Shown: positions 2,069 through 11,129, numbered from the stretch's first letter. The stretch is 57,101 bases of DNA from Cyanobacteriota bacterium (GCA_026389265.1 JAPLIE010000112.1:1-57101), one strand, 5' to 3'. Numbers and translations: made by a program. Notes: a model not told the origin generated them from the letters alone.

Positions 2069-2506
2069 TCAGGCGATGGGCTTACCAGCCACCTGAATCG
2101 ACTTGACCAGCACCCGAGTGAGTTCCTGGCGGTGGCCATTCTTGCGCCGCGTCTTCTTCTTGGGACGCATCTTGTACACCAGGATCTTGGGACCGCGGCG
2201 GTGGGCCAGCACCTGCAGCTCCACTGTGGCTCCCTCCACATAGGGGGCGCCGAGGGTGGTGCCCTTGCCATCCTTCACCAACAGCACCGTCTCGAGGGTC
2301 ACGGTGCTGTCCACCTCGGCATGGAGCCGATCGATGTCGATGTAGCGGTCGGGCTGCAGCCAGAACTGCTGGCCGGAGGCCTCCACGATCACGTAGGGAC
2401 CCGGGCCGGACGGAGCCGAGGAGGAGGCTGGAGCGGCGCTCTCTGCGGTGCTGCTCGGAGCGCTTTCGCTCGGGGCGCTCGCCGCGGGGGTGGTGGTTTC
2501 GGCCAT
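2069..2506 (-). CDS. rplU: 50S ribosomal protein L21 with Ala/Ser/Pro-rich N-terminal tail
   Basis: The conserved L21 body (YVIVEASGQQFWLQPDRYID through KKKTRRKNGHRQ) occupies about the last 105 residues. I place the start at ATG 2506 (MAETTTPAA), since the codons upstream to 2551 look non-coding. This leaves a 35-40 residue tail rich in Ala, Ser, Pro and Glu before the ribosomal domain, longer than in E. coli L21 (103 residues). Similar low-complexity tails occur in picocyanobacterial L21. It is the first gene of the minus-strand rplU-rpmA-truB run and is divergent from kaiA; the 149 bases between them must carry both promoters, though I see no clear consensus boxes. Confidence 0.95.
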   Translation of the reverse strand: MAETTTPAASAPSESAPSSTAESAAPASSSAPSGPGPYVIVEASGQQFWLQPDRYIDIDRLHAEVDSTVTLETVLLVKDGKGTTLGAPYVEGATVELQVLAHRRGPKILVYKMRPKKKTRRKNGHRQELTRVLVKSIQVAGKPIA

Positions 2507-2655
2507 GGGACTCAGGGCACGGCCAGGCTGGTGGCAGGGATCTGCCCCCATTCAGCCTGGCGCGTGGCAATCGAAAGACAAACAAAGACTTTCCCATTCC
2601 GGGCCGCCATCCGTCAAGATTCGGGCACCCAGCAGGGTTTCCCTCCGTTCCGGCA

Positions 2656-3540
2656 ATGCCAGGACAGCCGCTCACGATCGTGTCGCTGCTGCGCGACCCC
2701 GCGCTCGCCCAGGCCTGTGGACAGTGGCTGCGGGAGGGTTTCTACCGGATGGAGGCGCTCGACCCGCGGGCCGATCCGGTGGAGATGCTTGAAGGGAAGC
2801 CCGAATCCTTCGACGCGGTGCTCCTGGAGCAGGGCGTGCTGGCTCCAGAGAGTCGCCAGTCCCTGATCGAGCGGGGACTGCTGCTGCCGGCCGTGGTGAT
2901 CGGCGAAGTGACCGGCCAAGTGGAGCTCCACGACGCAGAGGTGCATCTGCCCCCCGACCAGCTTGAGCAGTTGAGCTACAGCCTCGATGCGGCGGTTTCA
3001 CGCTTTCTGCATCGGGGCCTGCCCAGCTCGGCCAGCCTGGGCCCGGCAGAGGTGGCTGGCGGCGCAGCCGCGGCCAACCCCAATGAGGGAGGCGAACGCT
3101 GGAAGCTGACCAACCGCCTGCGGGGCCGGCTCGGCTACCTGGGCGTCTACTACAAACGGGACCCCGCCCGCTTCCTGCGCAACCTGCCCAAGGGCGACCG
3201 GGAGGAACTGCTGCGTTCCCTGACCCGCACCTACCGCGATCTGCTGCTCAGCTACTTCCGCGATCCAGCCAGTGCCAATCAGGCGCTTGAGAGTTTTGTG
3301 AACACCGCCTTCTTCAGCGATCTATCGATCACGAACACCGTGGAGATCCATATGAATCTGATCGACGGTTTTGCCAAACAGCTCGAACTGGAGGGCCACA
3401 AGTATGCCTTTCTTCAGGATTACCGCCTTGCCCTACTGGATGTCATGGCCCATCTCTGCGAGATGTATCGGCGCGCCGTTCCCCCCGATCCGCCCCTCAC
3501 CAGCGCGACCGTGCCGGGATCGAGCGAACCCCCCGCCTGA
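2656..3540 (+). CDS. kaiA: Circadian clock protein KaiA
   Basis: KaiA promotes KaiC autophosphorylation by binding the KaiC C-terminal tail. The 294-residue protein is full length compared with 284 in S. elongatus. Residues 1-135 form the pseudo-receiver domain ([10 protein letters not shown] at the start, [20 protein letters not shown] in the middle). A Gly/Ala-rich linker sits near residues 130-150, and the C-terminal four-helix domain carries the conserved [16 protein letters not shown] and [19 protein letters not shown] segments. Retention of kaiA separates this organism from Prochlorococcus, which has lost it. kaiB follows after 61 bases, so kaiA shares the operon or at least the direction of kaiBC. 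Confidence 0.96.
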
Positions 3541-3601
3541 ATCACCGCCCCGAGCTTTACCCCAGCCCGCTTCATCGATTTCACCCCCAAGAGCCACCGC
3601 G

Positions 3602-4012
3602 ATGCCCGCCCGCAAGACCTACATTCTCAAGCTCTATGTAGCCGGCAACACGCCCAACTCGATGCGGGCGCTCAAGACCCTGCGCAACATCCTGGAAACG
3701 GAGTTCCGTGGTGTCTACGCTCTCAAGGTGATTGATGTGCTCAAGAATCCCCAGTTGGCCGAAGAAGACAAAATCCTGGCCACCCCAACCCTCGCCAAGA
3801 TCCTGCCACCACCGGTGCGGCGCATCATCGGCGACCTCTCGGACCGCGAGCGGGTGCTGATCGGCCTCGACCTGCTCTACGAAGAACTCAGCGATGAAAC
3901 CTACGGATTCGAGGAGGAGGGCAACGACCTCACCAACGGTCCGCAGGACCCGGAACCGATCAGCAGCGGCGGGAGTGGTGTTGGTGGTGGTGGTGTTTCG
4001 CCCCATCTCTAA
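3602..4012 (+). CDS. kaiB: Circadian clock protein KaiB with Gly-rich C-terminal extension
   Basis: The start is ATG 3602 ([20 protein letters not shown]), giving 136 residues. The thioredoxin-like fold-switching KaiB core is complete: YILKLYVAG, the [20 protein letters not shown] segment and the RVLIGLDLL helix are all present. S. elongatus KaiB has 102 residues; here about 34 further residues follow, acidic (EEEGNDLT) and then Gly/Ser/Val-rich, ending SPHL. Acidic KaiB tails are known in cyanobacteria, but the poly-Gly end looks like local expansion of GGT repeats. KaiB binds the KaiC CI ring at night and sequesters KaiA. It lies 77 bases upstream of kaiC. Confidence 0.96.
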
Positions 4013-4089
4013 GCATCAGGTCTGAGCCTCAGGCCCGCTCACCTTTCCGCCTTCATTCTCAACCCACCGCGTTCTCGAGAGCTCCTTCG

Positions 4090-5637
4090 ATGCAGGACCC
4101 CAGCCTCACCAGCCCCGCCACACCGCTGATGCAGGTGCAGAAACTGCCGACCAGCATCGAGGGCTTCGATGACATCTGCCACGGCGGCCTGCCGATCGGC
4201 CGATCGACGCTGATCAGCGGCACCTCCGGCACGGGCAAGACCGTCTTCTCGCTCAACTTCATCTATAACGGTATCCGGGATTTCAACGAACCGGGCATCT
4301 TCGTGACCTTCGAGGAATCACCCCTCGACATCCTGCGCAATGCCGCCAGCTTTGGCTGGAATCTTCAGGAGATGGTGGAGCAAAATAAGCTCTTCATCCT
4401 CGATGCATCACCCGATCCCGATGGCCAGGATGTGGCCGGCAGCTTCGATCTTTCCGGCCTGATCGAGCGCATCAACTATGCGATTCGTAAATATAAAGCC
4501 CGCCGGGTGGCGATCGACTCGATCACGGCGGTGTTCCAGCAATACGACGCCGTTTCGGTGGTGCGCCGCGAAATCTTCCGCCTGATCGCCCGGCTCAAGG
4601 AGATCGGCGTGACCACAGTGATGACGACAGAACGCATCGATGAATACGGTCCGATCGCCCGCTACGGCGTGGAAGAGTTCGTGAGCGACAACGTGGTGAT
4701 CCTGCGCAACGTGCTCGAGGGCGAACGGCGACGGCGCACCGTGGAGATTCTCAAACTGCGCGGCACCACCCACATGAAAGGGGAGTTTCCCTTCACCATG
4801 GGTGCCCACGGCGTGAACATCTTCCCCCTGGGCGCCATGCGGCTCACCCAGCGCTCCTCCAACGTGCGGCTGAGCTCCGGCGTGCCAAAGCTGGACGAGA
4901 TGTGCGGCGGTGGCTTCTTCAAGGATTCAATCATCCTGGCCACCGGCGCCACGGGCACGGGCAAGACGCTGTTGGTGAGCAAGTTCATCGAAGATGCCTG
5001 CCGCAGCAAAGAGCGGGCGATCCTGTTCGCCTACGAAGAATCCCGAGCCCAGCTGCTACGCAACGCCACCAGCTGGGGCATCGACTTCGAGCAGATGGAG
5101 CAGGATGGTTTGCTCAAAATCATCTGCGCCTATCCGGAATCCACCGGGCTGGAGGATCATCTCCAGATCATCAAAACCGAGATCAGCGAGTTCAAGCCCT
5201 CACGGATGGCGATTGATTCCCTTTCGGCCCTGGCCCGTGGCGTCAGCCACAACGCCTTCCGCCAGTTCGTGATCGGGGTGACGGGCTACGCCAAGCAGGA
5301 GGAGATCGCCGGCTTCTTCACCAACACCTCCGAGGAGTTCATGGGGAGCCATTCGATCACCGATTCCCACATCTCCACGATCACCGATACAATCCTGATG
5401 CTGCAGTATGTGGAGATCAGGGGTGAGATGGCCCGGGCATTGAATGTGTTCAAGATGCGCGGCTCCTGGCACGATAAGGGCATCCGTGAATTCGTGATCA
5501 CCAGCAACGGTCCGGAGATCAAGGATTCCTTCTCAAACTTCGAGCGAATCATCAGTGGTGTGCCTCACCGCATCAGCAGCGATGAGCGCAGTGAGCTCGC
5601 CCGTATCGTGCGGGGAGTGGCCTCCGAAGACAGTTGA
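4090..5637 (+). CDS. kaiC: Circadian clock ATPase/kinase KaiC
   Basis: The 515-residue protein has the tandem RecA-like CI and CII domains. CI carries Walker A GTSGTGKT (44-51) and catalytic glutamates in FEESP (E75, E76). CII carries Walker A GATGTGKT (286-293) and the phosphorylation pair in DSHISTITD, S429 and T430, matching S431/T432 of S. elongatus. The C-terminal A-loop and tail (FERIISGVPHRISSDE) that bind KaiA are present. KaiC oligomerises as a hexamer and is the oscillator core. All key residues are intact, so the clock should be functional together with the adjacent kaiA and kaiB. I see no strong terminator in the 238 bases downstream. Confidence 0.98.
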   Translation: MQDPSLTSPATPLMQVQKLPTSIEGFDDICHGGLPIGRSTLISGTSGTGKTVFSLNFIYNGIRDFNEPGIFVTFEESPLDILRNAASFGWNLQEMVEQNKLFILDASPDPDGQDVAGSFDLSGLIERINYAIRKYKARRVAIDSITAVFQQYDAVSVVRREIFRLIARLKEIGVTTVMTTERIDEYGPIARYGVEEFVSDNVVILRNVLEGERRRRTVEILKLRGTTHMKGEFPFTMGAHGVNIFPLGAMRLTQRSSNVRLSSGVPKLDEMCGGGFFKDSIILATGATGTGKTLLVSKFIEDACRSKERAILFAYEESRAQLLRNATSWGIDFEQMEQDGLLKIICAYPESTGLEDHLQIIKTEISEFKPSRMAIDSLSALARGVSHNAFRQFVIGVTGYAKQEEIAGFFTNTSEEFMGSHSITDSHISTITDTILMLQYVEIRGEMARALNVFKMRGSWHDKGIREFVITSNGPEIKDSFSNFERIISGVPHRISSDERSELARIVRGVASEDS

Positions 5638-5875
5638 CCAAGCGACCTTTTTGCCTGAGGAAGGTGGTGACCATGGGCACACGGCTGGGGAAGGCGACAC
5701 CACTAGGTGATTGGATGCCATATTTAAGCTTGCGCTGAATCTACCTCGAATCAATGGGGATAAAAGCAATACTTCGGATCACTGCAGATTATAAGTATGC
5801 ACTCTATGAGGCATCCATCTCAGCTGGCTATGTGGCAGTTCGGCGAGCCACGCTGGGCAGTTCTGCCACTTGGCT

Positions 5876-8674
5876 TCAATCGATGACGTTCACCTGCACC
5901 GCAACGCCGCCGACGATCTGCTTGCCCACCCGTTGCACCACATCAAGGATGAAGCGTCCGCCCTTGGGAGCATCGGCCGGCAGTTGGAAGCGCAGGGCCA
6001 GGCGCGTGGGTTCCTGCGGCCGAAGCCGAACGGGCACCTCGGCCCGTTCTCCCTGGGCCAGCGGCAGCTCGATCGCGCCGGCAAATTCCAGCTCAAACCG
6101 CTGGCTTGCCGCCATCGTGGGCACTGGCCGCGTCGGCTGGCGTGGGGCGAGGATTTCGCTGGCGCCACCGCAATCAAGCCGCATCACCTCGCGCTCCGCC
6201 GGAACCCCCTCCGCCTCGGCGCGGGGGGTGGCCACCAGCCGTCCGGATTCGAGCTGGGCTGCGCTGAGCACGCTCTTCGGGACGATCAGTCTGGCCTTCA
6301 GCGCCGCGAACTTGGCCGGCCGCAGCAGCTCGATCGTCGCCTGCTCCAGGAGCCTCGGCTTCACCAGCACCGCCACAAAGGGGAACACAAACCACTGGTC
6401 GCGCCTGAGGTTGACGATCGTCAGGTTTTTTTGGGCCAGGTTGTTCTGTTCCCAAACCCTCTGGTCGGGAGCCGGCGCGTCGAAACGGCTGAACACCGCC
6501 GCGAGCAGGCACGGATGGGTTCCCTCCACTGGCACCTGCGCCCGTGGCCAGCGCGCTTTCAGGATGCGCGTTTCGCCAGGGCCCACATCAAAGGCCACCG
6601 CCGCCGTGGTGGCTGGCAGCCAGTCCGCCGGATAAACGAACTGGCTGCCGGCGAAAAACTTGGTGTTGAAGCTCAACACCAGATGCCGCGCCACGGCATT
6701 GGTCGCCCTGTTGCGCACCCGGGCGTAGAGCCAGTTATCCTGGCCGGACTCCGGGTTCTGGTGCGTCAGGCCCCCGTCGTCGGCGTTACGCACCCACAGG
6801 TCCGGGCTGTCCCAGAAGCGGCCAGAAGCGGGAACCGTGCCGGTGTCGCTGTCATTGTCGCGAAGCCACAAATCGGGGAGCGGCGCAGGATCCGGCAGGC
6901 CGTAGACGAATCGATGGAAGGCATCCACCACCTCGCTGCGGCCCGTGCTGGCAAGCAAATGCGCTTCGATCTCCTCGGTGGTCACCGGCCTGCCGTTACG
7001 GGCGGCGAAGAACGCGTTCATCTGCGCCACCAACGTGGGGCCCCCCACCACCGCCGCCAGACCCCGCCACAACCGTTCGCCGGAGGTGTAGCTCGCAGAT
7101 GGCGTCACCCGTACCCAGGGATTGCGCGCTGAGAGCGTCACCGCCGGGTTGCTGAAGTTGAACGCCAGCGCACCCGACGCTCCGTTGTCGTGGTAGGTCG
7201 TCCACGCTTCGTCAAACCAGCCGTCGGCCTGGGAGGCCGGTTTGAGGCCCCGTCCCCACCAGCTGTGAAAGCATTCGTGGCGCAACGCTGCCTGGCCCGT
7301 GGTGGTCGCCCCGTCGTACTCCATCCCCCCCACGTTCATGAAGGCGGTGAACTGATTGCCATGCAAATAGCTGCCGCTGGAGCTTTCATTGCTGGCCAGG
7401 TGATTGCCGATCGACACCGCCAGCGCCGCCACGTCGGACGTGCTGCTGGTTGGCTTCCAGGCCGTCACGGTGACCGTCGCGCCGGATTGCGGCAGTACCT
7501 GGTTGTGGGTGGCGCTCGCCAGTGTGTCTGCCGCGCGCAGCTCCAGCAGGGGTGAGAAGGCGGTGGAACGGGCAGAGAAGTCGATCCGCCAGTGGTTGGC
7601 GCCGAGCGTCGTCACGGTCCCATTGGTGATGGGCTGGTGCACCACGCTGGTGCCGTTGAGGCGCAGCTCCAGCGCCAGTTCGAATTGATCGAAGATCAGG
7701 TTTGCCGGGATGAAGGATTCCAGATAGCGGCCCGGGGCAGTGTCGGTGAAGCCGAAGTTGAAGGTGAGCCGAGGACCCGCGCTCCAGCTCAGTTGCGGCA
7801 GATAGCTGCCCACCATCGGCGCCTGCGGCAGCCCCACCGGGTAGCTCACGCTCAAGGTGTGGTTGGTGCCGGCATCGAGCACCCGCGCCAACACCCTCAG
7901 TTCGGCGCCTGTCCCTCCTCCGAAGTCGTGGGCCGCGATGTCGGCGACCGGCACGACCGCGCCATCGAGCTCCACGGCGCTCGGCGTCTGGCGAAGATCA
8001 AAGATGGGACAGCCAGCGTGGCGGCCCAGGCGAAACTGCAGAGTCGCCTGACCCGTCGCGCTCTGGGTGGCGGCGTCAAAGAGGATCGTGGCATCGATGC
8101 GCGAGATGTCCACTGGCACCGCCCACAGCCCATCGACGAGCCGGGGGGGTGGGGCGATCGCGAAATTGGTGCCAGCTAGCGCCGCTCTGCTCGCCCGAGA
8201 TGGCAGCAGGCTCAGGAGCTCGCTCAGGGATGTGGCGCACTCGCCGTCTGCTGCGCCACAGGCGCCCACCCGCTTGATCAAGGCGGCGCGCCAGCCGAAT
8301 CCCCGGGCGGCGCTGACGTGGGCCATCTCCTCGGTCACAAACATGGCCTCGGCCGGGGTGGCGCCAAGGCCGGCTTTCGTCAAGGCCAGATCGTAAATTG
8401 GCCTGGCCGGTTTGCCGATGTTGCCGCTCAACTCCGTGGAGATCGTGATCAAGGCCGTCTCCACATAGCGCCCGATCCCCAAGACGGCAAGTCGGGCCTG
8501 CACCTGCGCCACGGTGGTTCCCGCGCTCTGGTTGGAGAGTAGCCCGATCCGCCAGCCCCGCTCCTGCAGCACCTGCAGGACATCAAGCGTGTCGATGAAG
8601 CGCTCGCGCCCGCCGGCCGCGTTGGTGAATACCAGTGTGTCTCCAAAATCGAAGAAGACGGTGGCAATGGGCAT
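5876..8674 (-). CDS. HAD-like domain fused to M1-type (gluzincin) metallopeptidase
   Basis: A 932-residue protein with two recognisable parts. Residues 1-160 look like a HAD hydrolase: motif I is FFDFGDTLV (D9), motif II is LLSNQS (S48) and motif III is IGKP (K88). Motif IV reads VTEEMAH where GDD is usual. The aspartate two positions after the nucleophile is Gly, so phosphatase activity is doubtful. Residues 180-620 look like an M1 aminopeptidase: GGMEY (449-453) resembles the exopeptidase GxMEN motif, and HECFH (466-470) is followed 18 residues later by E489 in WFDEAW, the exact HEXXH-X18-E zinc site. The last 300 residues seem to be beta-rich domains. There is no signal peptide. An AGGAG ribosome site precedes ATG 8674. 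It lies downstream of two genes for exported proteins on the same strand. The fusion is read directly from one uninterrupted frame. Confidence 0.8.
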   Translation of the reverse strand: MPIATVFFDFGDTLVFTNAAGGRERFIDTLDVLQVLQERGWRIGLLSNQSAGTTVAQVQARLAVLGIGRYVETALITISTELSGNIGKPARPIYDLALTKAGLGATPAEAMFVTEEMAHVSAARGFGWRAALIKRVGACGAADGECATSLSELLSLLPSRASRAALAGTNFAIAPPPRLVDGLWAVPVDISRIDATILFDAATQSATGQATLQFRLGRHAGCPIFDLRQTPSAVELDGAVVPVADIAAHDFGGGTGAELRVLARVLDAGTNHTLSVSYPVGLPQAPMVGSYLPQLSWSAGPRLTFNFGFTDTAPGRYLESFIPANLIFDQFELALELRLNGTSVVHQPITNGTVTTLGANHWRIDFSARSTAFSPLLELRAADTLASATHNQVLPQSGATVTVTAWKPTSSTSDVAALAVSIGNHLASNESSSGSYLHGNQFTAFMNVGGMEYDGATTTGQAALRHECFHSWWGRGLKPASQADGWFDEAWTTYHDNGASGALAFNFSNPAVTLSARNPWVRVTPSASYTSGERLWRGLAAVVGGPTLVAQMNAFFAARNGRPVTTEEIEAHLLASTGRSEVVDAFHRFVYGLPDPAPLPDLWLRDNDSDTGTVPASGRFWDSPDLWVRNADDGGLTHQNPESGQDNWLYARVRNRATNAVARHLVLSFNTKFFAGSQFVYPADWLPATTAAVAFDVGPGETRILKARWPRAQVPVEGTHPCLLAAVFSRFDAPAPDQRVWEQNNLAQKNLTIVNLRRDQWFVFPFVAVLVKPRLLEQATIELLRPAKFAALKARLIVPKSVLSAAQLESGRLVATPRAEAEGVPAEREVMRLDCGGASEILAPRQPTRPVPTMAASQRFELEFAGAIELPLAQGERAEVPVRLRPQEPTRLALRFQLPADAPKGGRFILDVVQRVGKQIVGGVAVQVNVID

Positions 8675-8722
8675 GATGCTTCTCCTCTTCGAGAGTTGGA
8701 TTACGGTGGAGCAGATTGCCCA

Positions 8723-9370
8723 TCATTCGGAACCGGGCACCGCAGCCGGCAGGCAGCGCAGGCCCGGCGCGTGGCTGGCCTGCTCGGCCCCGGCGAACAG
8801 CGTCCGGTTGAGGCGCGATGCCCGCGCCAACTGCGCTCGTTTTGCTGCTCCGCAAGTCAACGTGGCGGTGTAGGTCAAAGGGCCCGTCATGGTCCAACGG
8901 GTGCACGCCTGCACATCCCTGATGGCCGGGAGAATGGCATTGAGCGTCGGCACGGATTCGCTGTAGCCGGGGATCGCCACGGGCAACTGGGGCAGCCTGC
9001 CCCCTTTCACCCACACCAGGCCGCTGCGGTTCGGCCCGGCAAGCCCCCAGGCCCCTCCCCTACTGGCAGGTGCTCGCCTCAGGAACAGCAGGGCTGTGCC
9101 CCTTCGCGCCATGGCTTGCCCGTCCCAGCGGGAGCGGATCGACACCGACGTGCCGGCCATGGGAGGCGTTCCGGCGACGCTCTCCCGCACGGCGCCGAGC
9201 TTGAGCCAATCGCCTTCCGCCGCAACATCGGCCACCACAATGCTGTCAGATTGGGCCAGCATGCAGAGCAGTGGCGGCTGCCCGTAGTCGAGCGCCGCCA
9301 CCGGCCCCGCGGCCAGAAGGCACGCAAAGGCGCTAGCGAAGCCGGGGCTCAGCCTCATCCGGAATGCCAT
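8723..9370 (-). CDS. Exported protein of unknown function
   Basis: I place the start at ATG 9370 (MAFRMRLSPGFASAFACLLAA), which gives about 215 residues with a clear signal peptide: basic residues, a hydrophobic core and a probable cleavage after AAGPVAALD. The start overlaps the last 38 bases of the upstream metzincin gene, which suggests translational coupling. The mature protein holds four or more cysteines (LLCML, QACTRW, TLTCGA, LRCLP) that could form disulfides. I do not recognise a domain. Its position between two metallopeptidase genes suggests a related extracytoplasmic role such as substrate, inhibitor or accessory factor, but this is inference only. Confidence 0.7.
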   Translation of the reverse strand: MAFRMRLSPGFASAFACLLAAGPVAALDYGQPPLLCMLAQSDSIVVADVAAEGDWLKLGAVRESVAGTPPMAGTSVSIRSRWDGQAMARRGTALLFLRRAPASRGGAWGLAGPNRSGLVWVKGGRLPQLPVAIPGYSESVPTLNAILPAIRDVQACTRWTMTGPLTYTATLTCGAAKRAQLARASRLNRTLFAGAEQASHAPGLRCLPAAVPGSE

Positions 9371-11129
9371 TGCGGTTTCGATCCATCGATGTCTTTGATC
9401 GGATGTCGAGGAGGTCATCGACGCCATTCTTGTTGAAGTCGGGTTTGAAGCCGGCGATCTGGTAAAAGGTCTTCAACTCCAGCGGTCCGGTGATGAAGCG
9501 CTTGAGCTTCCGGTTCCAGACCTTGGCGCTCGGATCCACCATCGTGGCCACCAAGTAGGAATAGGTGGCAGGGAAAAGGCTCAGATCTGTGCCCCTGCGG
9601 CAATACTTGAGTTCGCCCCGGTTGGAGTCACCCGCTCCAGCCAGCCGAAGGCGCCTCGGCTCCTTACCGATGCTGCCCTTCGGGCAATCCTCAGGTCCAT
9701 AGGTGACATCAAGGGTGCGCGGTCCGGCCAGATTGCCGATGCGGATCGGCAGGGTTTCCTTGATCACCCTCTCCTTGCCATCCTGGCCTCCCTTTCCGAT
9801 CAGGATTTCCGGCTTGGCGCTCAGCGGCACCCTGTTGAGCCCGCTGATCCGCGCTCCGGTCACCATGGTCTCCAGGTCAATCATGCGGGGGACGCGCACC
9901 AGTTCCAGTCGCCGCAGGATCAGCGGGCCACTGGCGGGCTGGAGATTGAATAGGCGGATGTTGAAATCACCGTTGGCCATGTCTGCCGCACCGGCGTCAA
10001 ACCCGAAGGTGCGCGGAAACAGAGCGAGCGCGGTGGCGCCATTGAACAGCCTTGCCTCCGCCACAACGAGCGGATTGGACTGGGTGAAGCTTGCCCCCAC
10101 ATGGAATTTCACCCCCGCCGGAGCGATGCCATCCCCTCCACCACTCCAGCTTTTCGGCGTCGCAAACTCCAGCCGGTACACGTTGTAAGTCGTGCCCTGG
10201 AAGGATTCGGTCGTGCCGGTGTTGGTGATCGTGGGATTGGTCCAGGGGCTCAGCGAGCCGTTGTAACTCCAGGCGATCGTCAGGCTGGGCGCCGTGCTGA
10301 GGATCTTGAGCACGAGCCGGTTGGCATTGGTGCTGTTGGGATTGACGAAATCCCAGTTCCACAGGGTTTTGGCATTCAAGCCCACGCCGTGCGCAAGAGT
10401 CTCATATTCTCGATCGGAGAAGTGGCGATTGCGGCCCGCCCGGATCTCGCCGGTGAGGCCCGTGCTGCCGGTGGCCATGATGTGGTTGTTCTGCTGGTCT
10501 TCACCGGGACGCGGTGCTGAATCGCTGTGGGCGGCTCCATAGTTGTGGGCAGCCTCATGGGAGGTGGTGCCGGCGATGGCCGTGGCCCACCGTTCCAGGG
10601 TGGAATTGGCGCCGTTCAGCGCCCCACCGGCGCCGCCATACTCCTGGCCAAAGGTATCCGCCCAGACCCGCGCAAAATCCTGAGGGTCGGCATTGTTGGT
10701 GTCCACCGCCTGGGCTTCGCCAAACAGCCCGACACCGCTGCCATCCGAGCCCACCCCCACAATCTGCCAGCGGGGATCGGTCTGGGGGGGCGTGGTCGTG
10801 GTCTGGACGACATTAATGCTGAATTCGCAGTAGTCATCCGTCACAAGATCAAAGATCCTGTTTCGCAACTGGGCGGTGGTGCCGATGCCGCTATCCAGAT
10901 CGCTCACATTGAAGGCCGCCAGGGGCGAGGTGGCCACCCCAAAGGTTCCATGTTCCGGGTAGCTGGCTTGCGCTGTCGTGGGAAACCACAGAAAAAGCCG
11001 ACTGTTCTTAGCTGTGGCGAGGGCCCCTGCCGGACAGGCTGCCTGGGCGGCCACCGGTGCGACGATGGAGAGAGCGCTCAAGCAGAGACCTACGCATAAC
11101 GAACCGGGTGTGTTTAGCCTTGACATCAT
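9333..11129 (-). CDS. Exported metzincin-type zinc metallopeptidase with C-terminal calcium-binding-like repeats
   Basis: The 598-residue protein begins with a signal peptide (SLCVGLCLSALSIVAPVAAQAA) and has an AGGAG ribosome site. The zinc motif HEAAHNYGAAH at 191-201 matches HEXXHXXGXXH of metzincins, and IMAT near residue 217-220 fits the Met-turn. The catalytic domain spans roughly 40-260. The middle region appears beta-rich. The C-terminus carries two Asp/Asn-rich loops, DFNKNGVDDLLD and DRNRNGIPDEAE, resembling thrombospondin type-3 or dockerin-like calcium sites. The protein should act outside the cytoplasm. It overlaps the next gene by 38 bases. Family level is well supported by the motif; a specific subfamily and the substrate are unknown. 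Confidence 0.8.
   Translation of the reverse strand: MMSRLNTPGSLCVGLCLSALSIVAPVAAQAACPAGALATAKNSRLFLWFPTTAQASYPEHGTFGVATSPLAAFNVSDLDSGIGTTAQLRNRIFDLVTDDYCEFSINVVQTTTTPPQTDPRWQIVGVGSDGSGVGLFGEAQAVDTNNADPQDFARVWADTFGQEYGGAGGALNGANSTLERWATAIAGTTSHEAAHNYGAAHSDSAPRPGEDQQNNHIMATGSTGLTGEIRAGRNRHFSDREYETLAHGVGLNAKTLWNWDFVNPNSTNANRLVLKILSTAPSLTIAWSYNGSLSPWTNPTITNTGTTESFQGTTYNVYRLEFATPKSWSGGGDGIAPAGVKFHVGASFTQSNPLVVAEARLFNGATALALFPRTFGFDAGAADMANGDFNIRLFNLQPASGPLILRRLELVRVPRMIDLETMVTGARISGLNRVPLSAKPEILIGKGGQDGKERVIKETLPIRIGNLAGPRTLDVTYGPEDCPKGSIGKEPRRLRLAGAGDSNRGELKYCRRGTDLSLFPATYSYLVATMVDPSAKVWNRKLKRFITGPLELKTFYQIAGFKPDFNKNGVDDLLDIRSKTSMDRNRNGIPDEAEPRLR

Follow-up and report, generated by a model that had tools for sequence, protein, structure and literature searches.

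A single gene of the cyanobacterial window (the whole 57,101-nucleotide stretch of DNA that was analyzed) encodes a protein of 932 amino acids that joins a cap-less HAD domain, a compact M1-like gluzincin domain, and a reusable beta-rich C-terminal module (5876..8674, minus strand, like all features of this protein given below) and for which full-length homologues exist. We find the combination to be rare and conserved, and within the reach of our searches it has not been described. Its parts are known and their arrangement is new. We infer its function from the sequence, and the reading that we favor, with slightly more confidence than doubt, is that of a zinc-dependent peptidase whose HAD-derived head would act in regulation or binding, the gene having probably spread horizontally. 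The initial annotation of this stretch had described a HAD-like domain fused to an M1 aminopeptidase-like protein. Its HAD assignment, M1-like site, and frame held up, but not the inference that it drew from a glycine in the first HAD motif. Absent from it were the C-terminal module of 335 residues, the Pseudomonas relatives with their three-gene cassette, and the odd spacing of the M1 site.

The gene, its setting, and its relatives

The reading frame runs without interruption over 932 codons from an ATG at 8674 to a stop at 5876-5878 on the minus strand, which had not been given earlier, and all residue positions that had been reported (D9, G11, S48, K88, GGMEY at 449-453, HECFH at 466-470, and E489) proved exact. 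A sequence-predicted Shine-Dalgarno motif, AGGAG, lies 7 nt 5' of the start codon (8682..8686), and the stop-to-stop open frame measures 948 codons, 16 more than the 932-aa protein. Because just these 16 open codons precede the ATG, there is no hidden upstream signal peptide and, judged by its sequence, the protein has no Sec signal, as had been proposed. The upstream genes were said to encode exported proteins, and the two on the same strand indeed start signal-peptide-like by eye: a 234-aa frame with no family match (8723..9427, minus strand) and a 598-aa metzincin-like protein with the motif HEAAHNYGAAH and weak M12/M66 matches (9333..11129, minus strand), the frame of which overlaps the start of the former. 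Both may belong to the same system as the fusion.

On its other side, the fusion gene faces a gene that we take, by our own reading of the sequence, to be kaiC (4090-5637, plus strand), within a run of kaiA/kaiB/kaiC-like genes at 2656-5637 (plus strand). Copies of kaiC from the same genus are 91-96% identical to the one in the window. The GC3 of the fusion gene (0.83) is near that of kaiC (0.81), and it is therefore not compositionally foreign. The region past kaiC differs between the window and eight same-genus genomes, so that the clock genes have a variable flank on this side; neither the fusion nor the tested neighboring genes of the window were present downstream of kaiC in eight same-genus genomes, in which up to 8 kb beyond kaiC was covered (1 kb in one genome, L050).

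A search for the same domain order across bacteria, as the initial annotation had suggested, recovered seven further full-length loci with 58-60% identity and identical domain order from a collection of one genome per species, all of them labelled Pseudomonas or gammaproteobacterial. With a profile of the eight sequences, the fusion was detected in 2 of 299 genomes of the genus Pseudomonas, one of which is G386 itself, and the full gene was found among cyanobacteria in the window's own genome only (386, then 151 genomes searched). From this patchy distribution, horizontal transfer follows as the best reading, and we infer that the gene probably moved between Pseudomonas-like and cyanobacterial genomes. 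Viral contigs, scanned with A1, A2, and the stand-alone L016 HAD (described below), yielded no relatives, and neither did phage records. Among plasmids, a single Mesorhizobium record matched, by its C-terminal module only, and the PADLOC defense and PHROGs libraries gave no match to the fusion beyond a weak HAD one. A targeted but limited search of open-access full text found no description of the HAD-M1 domain order, in line with the earlier statement that no described enzyme shows it.

These relatives also bear on the suspicion that the apparent fusion is an artefact of assembly, frameshift, or misannotation. Some members do lie on MAG or draft contigs, but a stop or frameshift between the two halves was looked for and is absent in eight genomes, which carry one continuous frame with the same order and include large Pseudomonas contigs. 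Because full-length relatives keep the domain order, we regard the fusion as genuine and the chance of an artefact as negligible. Identity is highest in the M1-like part (65-66%), followed by the HAD (54-60%) and the C-terminal part (51-55%). Between Pseudomonas homologues, dN/dS amounts to 0.01-0.27 in the catalytic part and 0.03-0.30 in residues 174-394, compared to 0.12-0.40 in the HAD and 0.11-0.35 in the C-terminal module; all parts of the fusion are under purifying selection, the catalytic part most of all.

In Pseudomonas, the fusion is the last of three genes that stay together while their flanks change, in the order of a 707-aa protein with a matrixin-type motif, a protein of ca. 99 aa, and the HAD-M1 fusion (5230-10766 of locus L004 and the same region in L005-L010). 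Similarity between loci with different surroundings spans about 5.26-10.77 kb, and the members of this cassette may act together. The 707-aa protein matches PF00413 with an E-value of 0.00019, under the cut-off. Orthology between this Pseudomonas metzincin and the metzincin-like neighbor of the window finds no support (hhalign, 0.4%), and a search of the window's genome, run without a positive control, found no copy of it.

The N-terminal HAD domain

Residues 1-164 (8183..8674) form a HAD domain, as had been recognized from its motifs. All eight homologues match PF00702, the window protein with a score above the curated cut-off (28.5 vs 26.4 bits), and an AlphaFold2 model of these residues built from the eight-sequence alignment (pLDDT 80.3, pTM 0.79) matches HAD structures with Z-scores of up to 18.9. 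The top match in VIA-align is the L-2-haloacid dehalogenase 1jud (Z 18.9, rmsd 2.5 over 146 residues), tied with the HAD phosphatase 4ygq (Z 18.8), and the best match in Foldseek is 3ib6 (176 alignment columns). The top NCBIfam match is haloacid dehalogenase type II (TIGR01428, 2.8e-8), with a score of 34.0 bits that is far below the curated cut-off of 125.4. A derivation from a haloacid-dehalogenase-like branch is the best explanation for the domain. Because just 39 residues separate D9 from S48, the HAD half has no C1 cap, and this spacing and the model together point to a cap-less domain. The closest stand-alone relative that we found is a lone 151-aa HAD with DLGDTL as motif I and TEN as motif IV (L016, 1498-1953).

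Motif I (8642..8650) reads D9-F-G11-D-T-L with the predicted nucleophile D9 and a glycine at +2, and D9, G11, D12, and T13 are invariant in the eight homologues, as is Lys88 of motif III (8411..8413). At motif II, most homologues share S48 with the window protein, and L006 has Pro. The motif IV region, FVTEEMAHVSAARGFGW (residues 112-128, 8291..8341), aligns ungapped over FVSSNGFDVGGAKNFGF of the L-2-haloacid dehalogenase 1qq5. Its E115 is invariant, and its second position, H119 in the window protein, is His in seven of the eight homologues and Asp in L009. The residues described for L-2-haloacid dehalogenases are Asp10, Thr14, Arg41, Ser118, Lys151, Tyr157, Ser175, Asn177, and Asp180, of which Asn177 and Asp180 are important by mutagenesis (PMC4899344). 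By position, D9, T13, S48, K88, Y94, and T114 fit this set, which is not found as a whole: E116 and H119 take the positions of Asn177 and Asp180, and Y94 is Phe in the Pseudomonas relatives. Arg41 sits in the cap, which the HAD of the fusion is without.

From Gly11 in place of the general acid/base Asp, the initial annotation had argued that the HAD half may be a binding or regulatory domain. This argument does not carry, since a Gly at +2 is also found in solved HADs such as ST2620 (2zg6; DFGNTL) and the E. coli phosphatase YihX (2b0c; DLGNVI), and an L-haloacid dehalogenase functions with the first Asp only (PMC7614388). Because active HADs without the second Asp exist, the glycine alone is no proof of inactivity. 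Motifs II and IV are degraded, and a non-catalytic binding role is therefore somewhat more likely, by our estimate about twice as probable as a catalytic one.

It is possible, yet on balance unlikely, that the protein is bifunctional, with a phosphatase- or dehalogenase-like HAD hydrolase and an M1-like peptidase working on one modified peptide substrate, for example if a phosphate or another group is removed either ahead of trimming or afterwards. D9, T13, K88, and E115 never vary among the eight homologues, which speaks against decay and fits a HAD that has kept some of its chemistry; YihX and 2zg6 are HADs with Gly at +2, besides the dehalogenase that works without the second Asp; L-2-haloacid dehalogenases and a HAD phosphatase are nearest in fold; and HAD fusions with two activities exist, as in drimenol synthase (PMC9128629). 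Against this weigh the loss of the motif II Ser in one homologue, the His that mostly takes the place of the motif IV Asp, the absence of the Arg41-bearing dehalogenase cap, and the lower conservation of the HAD half compared to the M1-like half. We see a smaller chance that the HAD recognizes or removes a phosphate, halogen, or other group on a peptide or amino acid and thereby gates trimming by the peptidase. Similarly doubtful is that such a gated HAD-peptidase, which would be the first of its type to be described, travels between phyla in peptidase cassettes. If the protein is instead a peptidase with a HAD-derived head, as we favor, the HAD half would no longer turn over a substrate and would bind a ligand or protein partner to position or regulate the peptidase. 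Both steps are less certain than the peptidase step, and regulation by the HAD is suggested, with this lesser certainty, by analogy to AtITPK4 and PcrP.

The M1-like half and the C-terminal module

The compact M1-like zinc peptidase domain spans residues 395-600 (6875..7492) and is supported by hhalign and by alignment to 6a8z. Compared with 12 M1 proteins from cyanobacterial genomes, including the separate M1 enzyme of the host itself, hhalign gave a probability of 87%, a P-value of 4.1e-6, and a score of 54.6. Among the controls, 20 column shuffles scored 12.9-23.6, reversed profiles 16-20, and metzincin and M36-like alignments 14-21, the last two kinds together spanning 13.8-21.2; the other parts of the fusion scored 15 (HAD) and 18 (C-terminal). 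Homology of the core to M1 is well supported by this score, which is far above the controls. The alignment pairs GGMEY with GGMEN, the two HExxH motifs, the distant Glu, Y529xxG532 with YEKG, and the stretch behind. The match to Pfam M1 (PF01433), in contrast, is no more than suggestive, with an E-value of 0.0058 and 16.7 bits, under the cut-off of 27.7. The best solved profile relative is Deinococcus M1dr (6a8z, E 0.031), aligned via the same residues.

The gluzincin site that had been noted earlier is present. It comprises the exopeptidase-type motif GGMEY (residues 449-453, 7316..7330), HECFH with predicted zinc ligands and general base (466-470, 7265..7279), E489 as predicted third zinc ligand with 18 residues between it and H470 (7208..7210), and, in addition, Y529 as the candidate catalytic Tyr of a Y-x-x-G motif (7088..7090). 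None of GGMEY, HExxH, E489, and Y529 varies among the eight homologues, and the chance expectation in this protein is 0.0006 for HExxHx18E and 0.003 for GGMEx. The published M1 signatures, GXMENX22-38HEXXHX18E and HEXXHX3G[DENQ]X6WX6E (PMC2241622), are found in part. The zinc site HEXXHX18E is there, with H466, E467, H470, and E489 in all eight sequences, but GXMENX22-38HEXXH is replaced by GGMEY at 12 residues before HExxH (8 of 8), and HEXXHX3G[DENQ]X6WX6E breaks down at G474-R475 and then at Q482 in the Trp position, with Ala at position 474 in the Pseudomonas relatives. The distance from E489 to Y529 is 40 residues vs 60-61 in the twelve M1 proteins. Because the published signatures are partly found, the peptidase half is, by its sequence, a compact and divergent M1-like lineage, and strict membership in M1 is not supported. 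The place of the M1 N-terminal domain may be taken by a beta-rich region at residues 174-394 (7493..8155), for which a poor full-length AlphaFold2 model from eight sequences (pLDDT 44.6) has strands at 189-381 and hhalign gave no profile match to M1.

Two other origins were considered for the peptidase half. An M61 source was raised by the pattern HExFHxW...KP, but the 18-residue spacing and GGME favor M1; no M61 sequences for comparison were found in the nine Pseudomonas genomes searched. A metzincin origin has no support (hhalign, 0.1%).

In the reading that we favor, the peptidase half is active and would work like an M1 aminopeptidase and trim short peptides: zinc would be held by H466, H470, and E489, E467 would activate water, Y529 would stabilize the transition state, and E452 of GGMEY would grip the free amino end of the substrate. 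This activity is not assured because the spacing of the zinc site is unusual. With published M1 signatures failing in part and the HAD motifs degraded, it could be that neither half is catalytic and that the protein serves in binding or has a structural role. We consider this quite improbable given that the zinc ligands, the general base, the Glu of GGME, and the candidate Tyr do not vary across two phyla and that no other part of the protein is as conserved or as constrained as the peptidase, and we keep to the reading as a peptidase.

The beta-rich C-terminal module (residues 598-932, 5879..6883; PDLW...HQNP...GQDN, then QRxGKxxGG) has 19 invariant columns in an eight-row alignment and recurs elsewhere at 19-27% identity. 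It lies behind a CHAP/DUF7689-like head in the cyanobacterium G237 (L002), behind heads with HEFGH/HEMGG-type motifs and no signal peptide by eye in Mesorhizobium and Paracoccus (P0002, P0004), and, in Photobacterium, behind a metzincin that starts signal-peptide-like (P0005), while in Phyllobacterium it is found at an S8 peptidase with a signal-peptide-like start and is apparently split over two frames. Pfam gave weak CARDB and NEW3 matches only, and a search of 349 Pseudomonadota and 339 cyanobacteria found carriers only in G386, the window's genome, G237, and G278. Most simply, this would be a reusable binding module of peptidases, and in the fusion it may bind the substrate or a partner, again with less certainty than the peptidase step. 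In L002, the module-bearing CHAP/DUF7689-like protein (657-2174) directly precedes a gene for a C13 (legumain-like) peptidase (2231-3181). On a Mesorhizobium plasmid (L017, 6282-11635), a module-bearing peptidase-like protein adjoins a phosphoglycerate mutase family protein and an M28 peptidase, another pair of a peptidase and a phosphatase-type neighbor.

A peptidase exported or delivered without a Sec signal, with the module as delivery or anchoring part, would be compatible with the other readings and seems unlikely to us. The signal-peptide-like starts of the Photobacterium metzincin that carries the module and of the Phyllobacterium S8 peptidase beside it point this way, as do the secreted look of the neighboring genes in the window, but the frame of the fusion leaves no room for a signal, the carriers P0002 and P0004 show none by eye, and no secretion gene adjoins the fusion in the loci examined.

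Comparison with known systems

The M1 metallopeptidases (PepN, LTA4 hydrolase, and M1dr 6a8z; gluzincins of clan MA) share HExxHx18E, GxME, the Tyr in Y-x-x-G, and the following helices with the fusion. They differ from it in that the fusion has GGMEY instead of GxMEN, no G[DENQ]x6W, 12 instead of 22-38 residues to HExxH, and 40 instead of 60-61 residues from Glu to Tyr, as well as a beta-rich module that replaces the helical domain and a HAD added in front. If the peptidase is active, the M1 core would thus tolerate a zinc helix flanked on either side by ca. 20 fewer residues, together with a different C-terminal part. For the HAD half, L-2-haloacid dehalogenases (TIGR01428, 1jud, 1qq5) are the nearest fold by Z-score (18.9) and align over the motif IV region without a gap, but the domain of the fusion is without their cap, has E116 and H119 for Asn177 and Asp180, and is part of a larger protein. 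The top Foldseek match, an uncharacterized small HAD of Listeria (3ib6), is similar in size but stands alone.

Three further proteins are comparable in architecture or role, and these analogies are no evidence of membership. The bacterial drimenol synthase AsDMS combines an N-terminal, reportedly catalytic HAD-like domain with a second enzyme domain (PMC9128629), though its partner is a terpene synthase and not a peptidase. PcrP (PA2803) of P. aeruginosa is a non-catalytic, protein-binding member of the HAD superfamily (PMC12632274) that resembles the fusion in its proposed role but has no known peptidase fusion. Arabidopsis ITPK4 carries a cap-less HAD-like domain without the second Asp, N-terminal to an unrelated enzyme (PMC7614388), and is likened by architecture, while its partner is an inositol phosphate kinase and it is a plant protein. 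The fusion changes no known pathway yet, and it points to a small transferable peptidase group in Pseudomonas. It likewise points to several families of peptidases that have one C-terminal module in common use. Provided that its peptidase is active, it would be a bacterial counterpart to the unexplained cap-less HAD of plant ITPK4, with a degenerate HAD kept as an appendage of an enzyme.
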